Assembly (NCBI GenBank): GCA_016463595.1
Contig: JAEMQZ010000005.1
Span: 1 to 48,720 of the forward strand
Origin: Synechococcales cyanobacterium SupBloom_Metag_052
Lineage (GTDB): Bacteria > Cyanobacteriota > Cyanobacteriia > PCC-6307 > Cyanobiaceae
Direction: 5' to 3'
Length of the DNA: 48,720 bases
In this document: positions 1,374 to 40,062 of the stretch, in pieces
How the letters are laid out: every line of letters starts with the position of its first letter
How positions within the stretch are numbered: the first letter of the stretch is position 1
Position numbers and translations under genes: made by a program
The notes under the pieces: model-generated
The model's database searches: none
Seen by the model: the letters and a program-made list of their open reading frames with translations, nothing else
What the model was told of the DNA's origin: nothing

Positions 1374-3676
1374 TGACCATCAGCCCACCAGAGCGTGGGA
1401 AAACGGCGAAGGCCCAGGTCGACCGGGTGAACAACCCGGCCACCTTCGAACTGTTCGGTAAGCCCGGCCATTTCGATCGCACCCTCGCTAAAGGTCCCAA
1501 AACCACCACCTGGGTTTGGAACCTCCACGCCAACGCTCACGACTTCGATAGCCACACGAGCGATCTTGAAGAGATTTCTCGCAAGATCTTCTCGGCCCAT
1601 TTCGGCCATCTGGCCGTCATTTTCATCTGGTTAAGCGGCGCCTTCTTCCATGGGGCCCGTTTTTCCAACTATTCCGGCTGGCTCGGCGACCCCACGCACG
1701 TCAAACCGAGTGCGCAGGTGGTTTGGCCGATCTTCGGCCAGGAAATCCTCAATGGCGACATGGGTGCCGGCTTCCACGGCATTCAGATCACCTCCGGTCT
1801 TTTCCATGTGTGGAGGGCATGGGGCATCACCAATGAAACCCAGCTGCTGGCTCTGGCCATCGGTGCGTTAGTGATGGCTGGCCTGATGCTCAATGCAGGC
1901 GTCTTCCACTACCACAAGGCAGCTCCCAAGCTCGAGTGGTTCCAGAACGTTGAGTCCATGCTCAACCACCATCTGGCCGGTCTGCTTGGTCTGGGCTCCC
2001 TGTCCTGGACGGGTCACCTGATCCATGTGTCCCTGCCCACCACTGCCCTGATGGATGCCATTGATGCCGGCAAGCCGCTGGTTCTCAATGGAAAAACCAT
2101 CGCTTCCGTGGCCGATATCCCGCTGCCCCATGAGTTCCTCAACCAGGACCTCATTGCCCAGCTGTACCCCGGATTCGGCGCTGGCATCTCGGCATTCTTC
2201 AGTGGCAACTGGGCGGCCTACGGCGATTTCCTCACCTTCAAAGGTGGGCTTAATCCCGTCACCGGCAGCCTTTGGATGAGCGATATCGCCCACCACCACT
2301 TAGCGATTGCGGTGCTCTTCATCGTGGCCGGTCACATGTACCGCACGAACTGGGGCATCGGCCACAGCATCAAGGAGATCCTCGAGGGTCAGAAGGGTGA
2401 TCCCCTGCTGTTCCCGGCCCCTAACGGTCACGACGGTCTTTATGAGTTTATGACCACCTCCTGGCATGCCCAGTTGGCCGTGAACTTGGCGCTGATGGGC
2501 TCGCTGAGCATCATCGTGGCCCAGCACATGTACGCGATGCCTCCGTATCCCTACATCGGCGTCGATTACCCAACCCAGATCTCGATATTCACCCATCACA
2601 CCTGGATTGGTGGTTTCCTGATCGTCGGCGCCGGCGCCCACGCCGCCATCGCGATGATTCGCGATTACGACCCGGTCAAGCACGTCGATAACGTGCTCGA
2701 CCGGGTGCTCAAGGCCCGTGATGCCCTGATCAGCCACCTCAACTGGGTGTGTATCTGGCTGGGCTTCCACAGCTTCGGCCTCTACATCCACAACGACACG
2801 ATGCGTGCCCTGGGCCGTCCCCAGGACATGTTCAGTGACACCGCGATCCAGTTGAAGCCCGTCTTCGCTCAGTGGATCCAGGGTCTGCACGCTGCTGCCG
2901 CTGGCACCACCGCTCCCAATGCCCTTGCCGGTGTCAGCGAGGTGTTCAACGGTGCTGTCATTGCCGTTGGTGGCAAGGTGGCCGCCGGTCCGATCCCCCT
3001 GGGAACGGCCGACTTCATGGTCCACCACATCCACGCCTTCACGATCCACGTCACCGTGTTGATCCTGCTGAAGGGTGTGCTGTACAGCCGCAGCTCCCGC
3101 CTCGTCCCCGATAAGGCGAACCTGGGCTTCCGCTTCCCCTGCGACGGCCCCGGCCGTGGCGGCACCTGCCAAGTGTCAGCCTGGGACCACGTGTTCCTCG
3201 GCCTGTTCTGGATGTACAACTCCCTGTCGATCGTCATTTTCCACTTCTCCTGGAAGATGCAGAGCGACGTGTGGGGCACCGTTAATGCCGACGGCACCGT
3301 TTCCCACATCACCAACGGCAACTTCGCCAACAGCGCCATCACCATTAATGGTTGGCTGCGTGATTTCCTCTGGGCCCAGGCTGCCCAGGTGATCAACAGC
3401 TATGGCTCTTCCAGCAGTGCCTACGGTCTGATGTTCCTCGGAGCCCACTTCATCTGGGCATTCAGCCTGATGTTCCTCTTCAGTGGCCGCGGCTACTGGC
3501 AGGAGCTGATTGAGTCCATCGTTTGGGCCCATAACAAGCTGAAGGTTGCTCCCGCCATTCAGCCGCGGGCGCTCTCCATCACCCAGGGTCGCGCCGTTGG
3601 CGTTGCCCACTATCTGCTGGGCGGTATCGCTACCACCTGGTCCTTCTTCCTGGCCCGCATCATTGCGGTCGGCTGA
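1373..3676 (+). CDS. psaA: Photosystem I P700 chlorophyll a apoprotein A1
   Basis: PsaA, one of the two large thylakoid membrane subunits of the photosystem I reaction centre. With PsaB it binds P700, the primary acceptors, phylloquinones, most antenna chlorophylls and the shared 4Fe-4S cluster F_X. The product is 767 residues, the usual size. The family N terminus (MTISPPERG, then [15 protein letters not shown]) fixes the ATG at 1373; the frame stays open upstream but that part is not PsaA-like. Many His residues in hydrophobic helices fit chlorophyll ligands. [12 protein letters not shown] at residues 588-599 supplies the two F_X cysteines (C590, C599). psaB follows after 20 bp, so the two are surely co-transcribed. 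Confidence 0.99.
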
Positions 3677-3696
3677 CCTCCACCTGACCTTTCCCA

Positions 3697-5904
3697 ATGG
3701 CAACGAAATTTCCTTCGTTCAGCCAGGGTCTGGCACAGGACCCCACAACCCGCCGTATTTGGTACGGGATCGCCACGGCTCACGACTTCGAGAGCCATGA
3801 CGGAATGACCGAGGAGAAGCTTTACCAAAAGCTCTTCTCGACCCATTTCGGCCATCTCGCCATCATCGGTCTCTGGGTTTCTGGGAACCTGTTCCATATC
3901 GCCTGGCAGGGCAACTTCGAGCAGTGGGTCACCGATCCTCTGCATGTGCGTCCCATCGCTCACGCGATCTGGGATCCCCACTTCGGCCAAGGGGCCATCA
4001 CCGCCTTCACCCAGGCCGGTGCAACCTCTCCGGTGAACATTGCCTATTCCGGTCTGTACCACTGGTGGTACACGATCGGCATGCGCAGCAACGCCGAGCT
4101 GTATCAGGGTTCCATCTTCATGATGATCCTGTCGGCTTGGGCCCTGTTCGCCGGCTGGCTCCACCTTCAGCCCAAGTTCCGGCCTTCCCTGGCCTGGTTC
4201 AAGAATGCTGAATCCCGCCTCAACCACCACCTGGCCGTTCTGTTCGGGTTCAGCTCGATCGCTTGGACCGGTCACCTCGTTCACGTCGCCATTCCTGAGT
4301 CCCGTGGAGTCCACGTTGGCTGGGACAACTTCCTGAATGTGCTGCCCCACCCGGCTGGTCTGGCTCCCTTCTTTACCGGTAACTGGGGTGTGTACGCCCA
4401 GAACCCTGATACGGCCTATCAGGTGTTCAACAGCACCGAGGGCTCGGGCACCGCGATCCTCACCTTCCTGGGTGGTTTCCACCCCCAGAGCGAAGCCCTG
4501 TGGCTCACGGATATCGCCCACCACCACTTGGCGATTGGTTGCCTTTTCGTGATCGCTGGCCACATGTACCGGACCAACTTCGGTATTGGCCATTCGATTC
4601 GCGAGATTCTTGATGCCCACAACCCTCCCAAGGGCACCCCTGGTGACCTAGGTGCTGGCCACAAGGGTCTCTACGACACGATCAACAACTCGCTCCACTT
4701 CCAGCTCGGCCTCGCCTTGGCTTCCCTCGGCGTTGTCACCAGCCTGGTGGCGCAGCACATGTACGCGATGCCGTCCTACGCGTTTATCGCCAAGGACTAC
4801 ACCACGCAAGCTGCCCTTTACACGCATCACCAGTACATCGCCATCTTCCTGATGTGCGGTGCCTTCGCCCACGGTGCGATCTTCTTCATCCGCGACTACG
4901 ACCCGGAAGCGAACAAGAACAACGTTCTTGCCCGCGTGCTGGAGCACAAGGAAGCGATCATCAGCCACCTCAGCTGGGTTTCCCTGTTCCTCGGTTTTCA
5001 CACCCTGGGTCTGTACGTTCACAACGATGTGGTTGTTGCTTTCGGCACCCCCGAGAAGCAAATCCTGGTGGAGCCTGTCTTTGCCCAGTTTGTCCAAGCC
5101 GCTAGCGGCAAGGCTCTCTATGGCTTTGATGTGCTTCTGGCCAATTCCGCAAGCGCTGCCAGCACCACCAGTGCGGTCTATCTGCCCGGTTGGCTCGATG
5201 CGATCAATGGCGGCAGTGACCTCTTCCTGCAGATCGGCCCTGGTGACTTCCTGGTTCACCACGCCATCGCCCTTGGTCTGCACACCACGACCCTGATCCT
5301 GGTGAAGGGCGCCCTGGATGCCCGGGGTTCCAAGCTGATGCCCGATAAAAAGGACTTCGGCTATTCCTTCCCCTGCGACGGCCCCGGCCGTGGCGGCACC
5401 TGCGATATCTCCGCCTGGGACTCCTTCTATCTGGCAGTCTTCTGGGCCCTGAATACCGTCGGTTGGGTCACCTTCTACTGGCATTGGAAGCACCTCGCCA
5501 TCTGGCAGGGCAACGTTGCCCAGTTCAACGAATCCAGCACCTACCTGATGGGCTGGTTACGCGATTACCTCTGGCTCAACAGCTCCCAGCTGATCAACGG
5601 GTACAACCCGTATGGCAGCAACAACCTGGCCGTCTGGTCCTGGATGTTCCTGTTCGGTCACCTGGTGTGGGCCACCGGTTTCATGTTCCTGATCTCCTGG
5701 CGTGGTTACTGGCAGGAACTGATCGAGACGATCGTTTGGGCTCACCAACGCACCCCGCTCGCCAACTTGGTGGGCTGGCGCGATAAGCCCGTCGCTCTCT
5801 CGATCGTTCAGGCCCGGGTCGTTGGTCTAGCCCATTTCACAATCGGCTACATCCTTACCTACGGCGCCTTCCTGATCGCCTCAACCTCCGGTAAGTTCGG
5901 CTGA
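3697..5904 (+). CDS. psaB: Photosystem I P700 chlorophyll a apoprotein A2
   Basis: PsaB, the partner of PsaA in the photosystem I core heterodimer. It has 735 residues, full length, starting [16 protein letters not shown] as in the family. It is a multi-helix thylakoid protein with many His ligands for chlorophyll. The F_X-binding loop [12 protein letters not shown] is at residues 558-569, with C560 and C569 completing the inter-subunit 4Fe-4S cluster. It is the second gene of the psaAB operon, and a TTCG-loop terminator starts 36 bp after its stop. A 37-base segment coding for the F_X loop is identical in DNA to the same place in psaA. Confidence 0.99.
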
Positions 5905-37639: not shown

Positions 37640-37677
37640 GATTACCGGGGCAGGAGCCGATTACCGGGGCAGGAGCC
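37640..37677. repeat. 19-bp perfect tandem duplication across a stop codon
   Basis: GATTACCGGGGCAGGAGCC occurs twice head to tail (37640-37658 and 37659-37677). On the minus strand the unit codes the last residues and the TAA of the DinG-like gene, so the second copy lies just past the stop. Confidence 0.95.
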
Positions 37678-39181
37678 GTGGCAGGGCCACCCAGGGTTCC
37701 AGGGCTGCCATCACCTGCCGGCCCCAGCCGCGGCGCCGCATGCGGCCATCAAGCACGGCCAGGCGTCCGCCGCTGCGGCGCAGGTTGGCCACCGCGCGCT
37801 GCAACCGGCCCAGGGCCTCGGGCAGGAGCAGCTCCCGGAACCAGTCCCGGCCCTGCTGGCGCAGGGCCTGAACCTGGGCGGCGGTGAGGGGCGACTCCAG
37901 GCTGGCCAGGGGCAGGGTGCAGGCGATCACCTGGCAGGGGGCGGGCAGGCGGGCCTGCTGGTCCAGCCACCAGCCCCAGCTGGCGCAGATCACGCCATTG
38001 CTATCGGGAGCAGTGTCTTGATGGACCACCCGGCTGCCGAATTCCGCCGCCAGGCCGCTGGTGAGGCCCCGGCGCAGGCCATCGTCATCGAGCAACACCA
38101 GGGTGAGGCCCTCCTGGCCCAGCACCAGCCTGCGCGCTTGATCAAGCAGGTGGCCTGCGAAGTGGGGGCTGTTGGGCAGGGGCTGGCCAGCCGGGGCAAA
38201 GACCGGCAGCGGGTCCTGCAGGGGTGGATCGCCTAGGGCCACCTCCACCTGGGGCCGGAAGCCGGCCCGGGAGCCAGCGTTGCCGGGGCTACCCAGGCGC
38301 CCGCCGCTGGGGAGTTCCCCCACCAGCAGGGCACCCCGATCGGCGAACAGGCCGGCCAGGGCGGCCAGGGGATCGAGCGGTTGGCGGTGCAGTTGCCAGC
38401 GCAGCAGGCTGGGATTAACCGTGGCCCAGCTGACCCAGTCGCTGCCGCCACAGGCCAGCCAATGGGGCCAGGGCTCCGGTAGGGCCTCCATCAGCGCCAG
38501 TAATTGGCGTAGGGGCGCTTCCTCCTCCGGGCTCACGCCCACCTGCTCCACGGGGCCCTGGGGATGGGCGAAGATCCGCCGGCTGAGCCGTTCATGCAGG
38601 CCCAGCAGGCCGGTGGAGGCGGCGGGCAGGCTGCGGCGCAGCACCTCCCAGTCGTGGTTTTCGATCACCAGGCCCAGGGCGCTGCGCAGCAGCAGCTCCA
38701 GGTTTTCGGCCTCGGGGATCACCAGCTGGCGAGCGCCCAGGCCCTGGGCGCGCCAGGCCTGCACCAGCTGGCGGTGATCGAGCAGCCACAGCCGCGCCTG
38801 GGGCGGGGCGGCCGGGCCCTCCCAGCAGGGCAGGGTCAGGCCGGCGGCCTCGAGTCGGGGCAGTTCCACCTGCAACAGCCTTTGGCGCAGCCCTTCGCTG
38901 ACCACCAGGGCTAGGCCGGTGTCGGTGAGGGCGATGGGCACGAGTAGGGCCAGTAGCCAGCTGGGGTCACTGCCAGGGGCCAGGCGCACCAGGGTTTGAT
39001 CACCGCGCCGCAAGCTGCGGGCCGCCAGGCGGCTGAGGGTGAGGTGGTGGGGCCAGCGGGTTTCCCCCTCCAGCCGGAGGAGTGCCTTGAGCTGCTGGTG
39101 GGCCAGGGCTTCCAACATGGGGCGATCGTAGGAAGCTGGGGCCAGCAAACTGGCGCATCGATGACCGACTGGTTCAGCCAT
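37661..39181 (-). CDS. DinG/XPD-like helicase homologue lacking intact ATPase motifs
   Basis: A 506-residue protein resembling DinG-type superfamily 2 helicases in layout, as annotated in related picocyanobacteria. Where Walker A should be there is APGSDPSW (about 68-75), with no GKT/GKS. The DEAH box is replaced by VIPEAENL (about 154-161). The C-terminal motif VI region is recognisable as LPEALGRLQRAVANLRRSGGR (from 453). The four cluster cysteines of DinG/XPD are not evident. It is probably not an active ATPase. Start: ATG at 39181, or ATG at 39118 (MLEALAHQQLKALLR), which may be the real one. Divergent from tyrA. Confidence 0.65.
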   Translation of the reverse strand: MAEPVGHRCASLLAPASYDRPMLEALAHQQLKALLRLEGETRWPHHLTLSRLAARSLRRGDQTLVRLAPGSDPSWLLALLVPIALTDTGLALVVSEGLRQRLLQVELPRLEAAGLTLPCWEGPAAPPQARLWLLDHRQLVQAWRAQGLGARQLVIPEAENLELLLRSALGLVIENHDWEVLRRSLPAASTGLLGLHERLSRRIFAHPQGPVEQVGVSPEEEAPLRQLLALMEALPEPWPHWLACGGSDWVSWATVNPSLLRWQLHRQPLDPLAALAGLFADRGALLVGELPSGGRLGSPGNAGSRAGFRPQVEVALGDPPLQDPLPVFAPAGQPLPNSPHFAGHLLDQARRLVLGQEGLTLVLLDDDGLRRGLTSGLAAEFGSRVVHQDTAPDSNGVICASWGWWLDQQARLPAPCQVIACTLPLASLESPLTAAQVQALRQQGRDWFRELLLPEALGRLQRAVANLRRSGGRLAVLDGRMRRRGWGRQVMAALEPWVALPRLLPR

Positions 39182-39225: not shown

Positions 39226-40062
39226 ATGACCATTTCCTGGCGCGATCGTCCAATCGGTGTGGTGGGCCTGGGCCTGATCGGCGGCTCCCTGGCCCTCGAT
39301 TTGCGGGCCCAGGGGTTACGGGTGCAGGCCCTGGTGCACCGGGAGGCCACGGCCCAGCGGGCCCGCCAGCGGGGGCTGGCCGATCAGGTGAGCACCGATC
39401 CGGCCGTGCTGGCCGATTGCGCCCTGGTGGTGCTGGCCCTGCCCCTGGATCGCTTGCTTGAGCCCAGCTCCGAGTTGCTGGGGGCCCTACCGGCCGGTGC
39501 GGTGATTACCGATGTGGGCTCGGTCAAGGGGCCGGTGCTGGATCGCTGGGCCCCCTGGCCCCGCTTTGTGGCCAGCCATCCGATGGCCGGCACGGCGCAA
39601 GCCGGGGTGGAGGCGGGGCTGGCGGGCCTGTTTGCCGGCCGGCCCTGGGTGGCGACGCCCACGGACGCCACCGACCCCGAGGCCCTGGCGGTGGTGAGGG
39701 GCCTGGCCGAGGCAGTGGACGCCCGCTGGATCGAATGCCTGGCCGCGGACCATGACCAGGCCGTGGCCTTGATTTCCCATTTGCCGGTGCTGCTGGGGGC
39801 CGCCCTGATCGAGGCGGCTGGCCAGGCGCCCCTGGCCCGGGCCCTGGCCTCCAGTGGCTTCGCCGACACCAGCCGCGTCGGCGCTGGCAACCCGGAACTG
39901 GGCAGCCTGATGGCCCGATATAACCGCGAAGCGCTGCTGGTAGCCCTGGCCCGCTACCGAACCAGCCTGGCGGTCCTTGAGCAGTTGGTTCAGGGCGGCG
40001 ATTGGCCGGGATTGGAGCAACGGCTCGTCCAGGCCCAGGCCCACAGGCCCGAATTTCTCTGA
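39226..40062 (+). CDS. tyrA: Prephenate/arogenate dehydrogenase
   Basis: TyrA oxidatively decarboxylates prephenate or arogenate in tyrosine synthesis; in cyanobacteria arogenate with NADP is common. The 278-residue product starts with a Rossmann fold, GVVGLGLIGGSLALDL (GxGxxG at 14-19). DVGSVKGPVLD and SHPMAGTAQAGVEA carry the conserved active-site region, with His in ASHPMAG, and DHDQAVALISHLPVLL follows with the second conserved His. The C-terminal helical dimer domain is complete. No ACT or chorismate mutase domain. Confidence 0.96.
   Translation: MTISWRDRPIGVVGLGLIGGSLALDLRAQGLRVQALVHREATAQRARQRGLADQVSTDPAVLADCALVVLALPLDRLLEPSSELLGALPAGAVITDVGSVKGPVLDRWAPWPRFVASHPMAGTAQAGVEAGLAGLFAGRPWVATPTDATDPEALAVVRGLAEAVDARWIECLAADHDQAVALISHLPVLLGAALIEAAGQAPLARALASSGFADTSRVGAGNPELGSLMARYNREALLVALARYRTSLAVLEQLVQGGDWPGLEQRLVQAQAHRPEFL

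Follow-up and report, generated by a model that had tools for sequence, protein, structure and literature searches.

The minus-strand gene at 37661..39118 of the window, by which we mean the whole 48,720-nucleotide stretch analysed (positions 1 to 48,720 of contig JAEMQZ010000005.1, Synechococcales cyanobacterium SupBloom_Metag_052), encodes a protein of 485 residues that appears to have kept the DinG/XPD helicase fold while losing the motor. Its sequence and predicted structure make it a member of sDinG (short-type DinG), named in 2025 for proteins that comprise the motor domains MD1 and MD2 and a short Arch, without an Fe-S domain and without ATP-binding residues (PMC11981726, in the parts available). 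The dead motifs are fixed in the members examined, and by sequence comparison the family is present class-wide, is under purifying selection and forms one clade. The reading that we hold, with a little more belief than doubt, is that sDinG is a pseudo-helicase that does not act as a motor and would still grip nucleic acid, either ssDNA or RNA, through its motor domain 2.

The minus-strand frame 37661-39181 yields 506 residues if begun at ATG39181, and the sequence-only reading had described it as open over 500 codons. It is indeed open over that length, but the upstream part (39119..39181) is probably non-coding. The congeners L005 and L006 carry an in-frame TGA within the first codons of the 506-residue reading, before ATG39118, and in most relatives the protein starts where ATG39118 lies, as M or GTG followed by x-E. 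Because of these two observations, the real start is probably ATG39118, from which the gene runs for 485 codons to a TAA. It is the sole match in its own genome at E 0.001 or better. No Helicase_C_2 match in this genome exceeds the Pfam cut-off, the best being the window gene itself at 20.5 bits; since the assembly is 90.8% complete, the absence of a true DinG from this genome is likely rather than proven.

The AlphaFold2 model of the protein (pLDDT 90.6, pTM 0.88) matches E. coli DinG 6FWS in Foldseek (E 3.8e-17) and S. aureus DinG in VIA (Z 25.1, rmsd 3.6, 466 of 485 residues aligned); CasDinG comes next by VIA Z, at about 20 to 23, and XPD structures reach about 17 to 21. It superposes on DinG over residues 1 to 485, with 11-17% identity to E. 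coli and S. aureus DinG in the structural alignments. As far as prediction shows, the DinG/XPD fold thus extends from end to end, including the RecA-like domains MD1 and MD2; these matches rule out a different fold, and the DinG-like character originally read from the letters holds in the predicted structure. Sequence libraries detect only the C-terminal part, and always below their cut-offs: Helicase_C_2 at E 0.0022 and 18.5 bits (cut-off 25.3), and in NCBIfam YoaA at E 1.1e-9 and 37.6 bits (cut-off 680) and DinG at E 5.5e-8. All 20 family members sampled from outside the picocyanobacteria hit Helicase_C_2 with an E-value of 1 or lower, and at least one of them (L033, 27.8 bits) exceeds the cut-off. 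A family profile of 40 sequences finds DinG 6FWR in the PDB (E 1.4e-9); phmmer with the single window protein returned nothing useful from the same database. The stretch from motif Ia to motif II, the region of the Fe-S domain, spans 54 residues in the window protein and, at the median, 59 in the family, as opposed to a median of 141 in 17 active or outgroup proteins, and it holds 0-2 Cys in the family versus 3-6 in the latter. By this measure the Fe-S domain is missing, and the window protein has no pseudo-Fe-S domain in its place. The motif II-to-III stretch, which contains the Arch, measures 128 residues versus a median of 176 in the active or outgroup set; the Arch is, on the same footing, kept but shortened. 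DSSP assigns coil to residues 47-53 and a single helix to residues 54-64 of the model, in which the extra helix alpha-3a described for a Nostoc sDinG model is not seen, and in the alignment the loop between beta1 and the alpha3 region is longer in other families than in the window protein.

The loss of the motor motifs extends to every family member examined. Our census compared 136 distinct full-length members, the window protein included, with 17 active or outgroup DinG/YoaA-type proteins; the 136 were obtained from 152 profile hits by requiring at least 440 residues and removing identical sequences, close relatives of the window protein being kept. In a joint alignment that includes active enzymes, APGSDPSW (residues 47-54; 38957..38980, minus strand like all features of this paragraph) stands opposite GTGSGKS of DinG, and VIPEAENL (residues 133-140; 38699..38722) opposite DEAH. 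These are the two replacements that the sequence-only reading had named, and the alignment bears out both, but its list was too short, since the Q-motif, motifs III, V and VI and the Fe-S stretch are gone as well. GK[ST] is present in 17/17 active or outgroup proteins and, within the first 120 residues, in 0/136 family members; the Walker A Lys column, occupied by K in all 17, never holds K in the family and holds Y, W or H in 134/136. D-E-x-H is likewise found in 0/136, while the 17 have DEAH, DEGH or DEMH; the commonest states of motif II in the family are DGVD or DGAD (52 together) and PEAE (38, picocyanobacteria). WPHH (residues 22-25; 39044..39055) replaces RPxQ of the Q-motif, RxxQ being present in 16/17 and 0/136, respectively, and W22 is family-wide. 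GELP (residues 267-270; 38309..38320) takes the place of SATL in motif III (SAT in 17/17 versus 0/136), and LQRAVANLR (residues 439-447; 37778..37804) that of KQGxGRLIR in motif VI (Q..GR..R in 17/17 versus 0/136). In SWGWWLDQQ (residues 380-388; 37955..37981), which replaces SFWEGVD of motif V, W384 is invariant (136/136), E is found in 4/136 and G in almost none. With the five scored motifs intact in none of the 136 members, the question whether the dead motifs are fixed across homologues is answered in the affirmative. The dead proteins of four presumed Gloeobacterales genomes have DGAH (three) or DRAH (one) at motif II, with Asp and His kept and the catalytic Glu lost, and three Gloeobacter-like dead proteins have the P-loop SGSGEHR; the DGAH and DRAH sites are, to judge from these residues, half-dead.

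The motor motifs have disappeared, but part of the surface that faces DNA in active enzymes seems to have been kept. In E. coli DinG, the ssDNA lying on motor domain 2 contacts the proline-rich strand 614-AFPPID-619, F615, which stacks on sugar, F638, a deoxyribose-stacking residue, and Y636, and at the border of the Fe-S domain and HD1 it is bound by R117 and R211 (PMC6300356, in the parts available). The counterpart of this proline-rich P motif in a profile alignment to E. coli DinG is LPLASLE (residues 402-408; 37895..37915, minus strand), in which P403 is conserved in 136/136 members; P410 is Pro in 135/136. The D, W and F of DWF (residues 425-427; 37838..37846, minus strand) are each found in 136/136, and F427 aligns with F638. 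The F615 column holds F in 17/136, I in 69 and L in 50, and the Y636 column is an invariant Asp. Half of the 26 invariant columns of a 40-row alignment (13) fall within residues 402-475. Among 68 columns conserved in at least 16/17 active or outgroup proteins, 15 are retained by 90% or more of family members, including the Pro of the P motif, the Phe of DWF, the Pro of LLP and both Asp and Arg of LDxR. A further 17 positions are family-wide (at least 97%) yet seldom shared by active proteins, W22, H24, R363, R428, R447 and R463 among them, which points to constraints of the family's own. On this reading the protein also retains some of the surface with which motor domain 2 faces DNA.

Selection on the gene was estimated by the Nei-Gojobori method, with five congeners and four more distant relatives. 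The dN/dS ratio is 0.05-0.10 for the former and 0.29-0.48 for the latter, compared with 0.73-1.69 for the exactly opposite frame across the nine pairs, and the frame is unbroken. By these ratios it is under strong purifying selection, and since homologues occur in 55/60 genomes and dN/dS lies well below that of the opposite frame, a chance frame is excluded. The ex-Walker A loop (residues 43-56) shows a pN of 0.007 and a pN/pS of 0.018 for the five near pairs pooled; between families it differs in both length and sequence. The proposal made from the letters, that dead catalytic sites in a long frame indicate a conserved role other than that of an ATPase and not decay, is well supported by the absence of intact motifs from all 136 members, by dN/dS, by the predicted DinG/XPD fold and by retention of the gene in genomes of 1.6-1.7 Mb.

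These small genomes belong to the window's own family and are presumed to be Prochlorococcus. One Prochlorococcus-like genome of 1.7 Mb (G022) carries a full-length sDinG (L046) that shares only about 23% identity with the window protein and sits on a very long branch of 2.58 changes per column. Homologues were found in 55/60 genomes, the window's own included, among them picocyanobacteria such as Synechococcus and Cyanobium and 22/23 genomes from other families of the class. Full-length members are also present in Nostoc (G169) and Dolichospermum (G111), both named via plasmid identity. PF06733 (DEAD_2) proved insensitive as a probe for active DinG, with matches in 3/99 genomes and in only 4/14 control genomes, and a profile of active DinGs was therefore used instead. 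It matches 186/212 genomes of the class at E 1e-5. The 20 misses listed all belong to one family (f23), six more being unlisted; f23 includes Synechococcus sp. PCC 7502 and Pseudanabaena galeata CCNP1313 (plasmids of the same length, 100% identity over the piece searched). Since 26/212 genomes of the class have no match, the gene can be lost. In a phylum-wide draw, 195/386 genomes match, 186 from the class and nine from outside it with a different, active DinG; the class members among the unmatched genomes listed, 171 further ones apart, are three, all of f23. The nine non-class genomes, which may be Sericytochromatia, gave no PsaA/PsaB match; the four class genomes tested all gave one. The window's own contig carries the photosystem I core genes psaA and psaB at its start (1472-5880, plus strand). 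A full-length active DinG tops the class-draw score list in five genomes, G048, G448, G453, G459 and G055, all of which carry the dead protein as well. We take G048, G453 and G459 to be Gloeobacter violaceus, G. kilaueensis and Anthocerotibacter panamensis, and G448 another Gloeobacter. The other listed class-draw matches cover part of the active profile only, mostly its C-terminal half, in frames mostly of about 480-600 residues. Relatives with intact GKT and DEAH motifs do exist, in the non-photosynthetic relatives, the presumed Gloeobacterales and G055, but as separate genes.

The dead family forms a single clade (support 100/100), with the presumed Gloeobacterales basal, in both of two trees that included seven of the nine non-class active DinGs (L128 and L134 were left out, and from the second tree also L046 and L205). 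Rooted with the outgroup, this clade groups as sister (92/88) of the seven non-photosynthetic active DinGs included. Grouping it instead with the active DinGs of class members (presumed Gloeobacterales) is 2.9 log units worse, but not significantly so (p-AU 0.232). The family profile scores the seven non-photosynthetic active DinGs at 145-172 bits, the four active DinGs of class members at 78-109, the YoaA proteins L200 and L204 at 107-108 and three other (plasmid) DinGs at 42-66. These scores favour the non-photosynthetic side. Perhaps sDinG is sister to the active DinGs of non-photosynthetic relatives, and in the simplest account a single loss of the motor would have preceded the divergence of the sampled oxygenic cyanobacteria. 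Within the active proteins themselves, those of the presumed Gloeobacterales and G055 (L146, L148, L150 and L149) have Ser at the expected first Fe-S Cys (YVSKRR/YLSKRR), and several non-photosynthetic DinGs seem by eye to be without the fourth Cys.

The surroundings of the gene offer candidate partners. In the window the order is recA (plus strand, identified by eye), DUF1815 (minus), DUF2839 (minus), sDinG (minus) and tyrA (plus). The downstream neighbours encode a DUF1815 protein (PF08844; 36763..37128, minus strand; E 1e-40) and a small DUF2839 protein (PF10999; 37290..37526, minus strand; E 3.5e-29) with, by eye, one likely membrane helix; the divergent neighbour (39226..40062, plus strand; PF02153, PF20463) encodes a tyrA-like prephenate/arogenate dehydrogenase. 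In a set of 37 loci (the window, 20 loci of the distant draw, L031-L050, and 16 named loci), tyrA lies within the available flanking sequence in 24, DUF2839 in 23 and DUF1815 in 20. Spacing was scored from 129 gene places each for sDinG and DUF1815, taken from part of the listed rows, with 127 class genomes in both. DUF1815 lies on the same strand 0.4-1.7 kb downstream of sDinG in 55/127; the two are on one contig yet apart in 34/127 (34/89 one-contig genomes), including two Gloeobacter-like ones, and on different contigs in 38/127, which is uninformative for draft genomes. DUF1815 matches are absent from all 26 class-draw genomes without sDinG (six of them inferred), and also from 20/186 genomes with it, 17 of the 20 in the window's own family. 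If all 26 belong to one family, the joint absence would amount to one event and thus to weak evidence. DUF2839 is not co-lost, since 11/11 tested genomes of the sDinG-less family have it; it is absent from the four non-class genomes tested. A control genome of S. elongatus matches both DUF1815 and DUF2839. A DUF1815 alignment was assembled from 10 of the 20 sequences found, those cut or holding X and some others being left out. The DUF1815 model (pLDDT 82.5, pTM 0.73) consists of a long helix, a five-stranded sheet and a helix, and because nothing in the PDB matches it with an E-value of 0.001 or lower, we assign no function to this protein.

How a protein of this kind might work can be proposed from what it has lost and kept. 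With the ATPase motifs and the iron-sulphur domain lost, two RecA-like domains and a short Arch would remain, and the second motor domain still carries the proline-rich strand and the DWF/LLP segment, which in DinG face bound ssDNA. Because motor domain 2 keeps these two elements, we propose that sDinG would hold ssDNA passively, presenting it to partners or protecting it for them, without moving along the strand; DUF1815 and DUF2839 are candidates for such partners by gene neighbourhood. The published AF3 model of Nostoc sDinG, with its partial DNA complex on MD2 and no ATP placed, also speaks for this reading. Counting against a grip on ssDNA are the I or L in the F615 column of 119/136 members, the change of Y636 to Asp, the disappearance of the Fe-S contact zone, the poor DNA metrics of that AF3 model and the 26/212 class genomes that do without the gene; moreover, the conservation of Pro, Trp and Phe may reflect structure instead of DNA contact. 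It is possible, though we think it distinctly less probable, that sDinG is a pure protein-protein scaffold, a rigid DinG-fold platform for DUF1815 or DUF2839, for example, that binds no nucleic acid. In its favour are the loss of the Fe-S domain and, with it, of the ssDNA contact zone between HD1 and Fe-S, the retention of only 15/68 active-conserved columns, the DUF2839/DUF1815 neighbourhood and the lack of DUF1815 in 26/26 sDinG-less genomes. However, the scaffold reading does not sit well with the concentration of 13/26 invariant columns in the part with the P motif, DWF, LLP and LDxR, one evolutionary event may account for the joint absence, 20/186 genomes that have sDinG are without DUF1815, and the two genes are apart in 34/89 one-contig genomes.

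The strong constraint on the ex-Walker A loop among near relatives (pN/pS 0.018) and the Y, W or H at the Lys column in 134/136 members would also fit a regulatory or sensing subunit that still binds a nucleotide or another ligand in a remodelled cleft, or an inactive subunit paired with an active enzyme, in the manner of RecC in RecBCD. We consider this unlikely, given that loop length and sequence vary across families and that none of the five scored ATPase motifs is left; an AF3 run on an sDinG, moreover, failed to place ATP (PMC11981726, in the parts available). That sDinG is in fact an active helicase whose motifs the alignment has misplaced is very improbable: we found no supporting point, and the motif census, in which the first 120 residues of all 136 members are free of GK[ST], together with the superposition on DinG over residues 1 to 485 rules it out. 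Least credible of all is a decaying pseudogene or chance open frame. The region is G+C-rich and has other long frames on the opposite strand, but homologues in 55/60 genomes, class matches in 186/212 and a dN/dS of 0.05-0.10 within the genus rule out this explanation too.

A more far-reaching scenario, which we regard as a doubtful one, can be built on the passive holding of ssDNA by sDinG. A DinG in the stem lineage of oxygenic cyanobacteria would have shed its redox-sensitive Fe-S and ATPase parts to become a passive ssDNA holder with DUF1815 (and DUF2839 at the membrane) in core single-strand handling, and would have been lost once, along with DUF1815, in the Pseudanabaena family. Whatever its role, the retention of a pseudo-enzyme across a bacterial class, even in genomes of 1.6-1.7 Mb, points to a basic function. 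The natural contrasts, namely active non-photosynthetic relatives, presumed Gloeobacterales with half-dead sites and a family that lacks the gene, make it a testable case, and a cyanobacterial annotation as 'DinG helicase' need not denote a helicase.

Among known systems, active DinG and YoaA are set apart from the window protein by Walker A GK[ST], DEAH, QxxGRxxR and the NCBIfam and Pfam cut-offs, all of which it lacks or misses. The YoaA proteins L200 and L204 share the DinG/XPD core with sDinG but have the five scored motifs intact. E. coli DinG (6FWR/6FWS) and S. aureus DinG (8ZEF/9II8) have the overall fold, the P motif region and the Phe of DWF in common with the window protein; unlike it, they are driven by ATP and, as far as the sources at hand describe them, carry an Fe-S or pseudo-Fe-S domain. 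The nearest active relatives by profile score (seven of the nine were scored) are the DinGs L126-L134 of non-photosynthetic relatives, which share the segment DWF..LPEA..L with sDinG but, in contrast to it, have GSGKS or GCGKS, DEAH, SATL, GRLIR and the Fe-S region, at a length of about 620-670 residues (L128 is a 793-residue frame with an upstream extension, and L133 and L134 are cut at the locus end). The closest match is sDinG as published, from a KEGG search with E. coli DinG in one representative strain per order, which yielded it in Nostocales, Chroococcidiopsidales and Pleurocapsales, its function being unstudied (PMC11981726, in the parts available). Among the literature matches listed, from a search outside which most subscription journals and bioRxiv preprints lay, nothing further appeared on sDinG function or essentiality, and the available part of PMC3744912 held nothing relevant to sDinG. 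The AF3 model of Nostoc sDinG yielded no more than a partial complex with DNA, located on MD2, its metrics with DNA were also poor, and it has the extra helix alpha-3a between beta1 and alpha3 (PMC11981726, in the parts available). This helix is not seen in the window protein's model. The window protein presents the MD1/MD2 fold, no Fe-S domain, a shortened Arch and no ATP-binding residues, all features described for sDinG. Because these features fit and Nostoc and Dolichospermum in our sample carry the family, we place the window protein, by the published description rather than by the Nostoc PCC 7120 sequence, in the already named sDinG. Compared with sections 2 and 3.9 of PMC11981726, the present analysis adds half-dead intermediates, ancestry, neighbourhood and selection, and extends a group published from three orders to the whole class, picocyanobacteria included.
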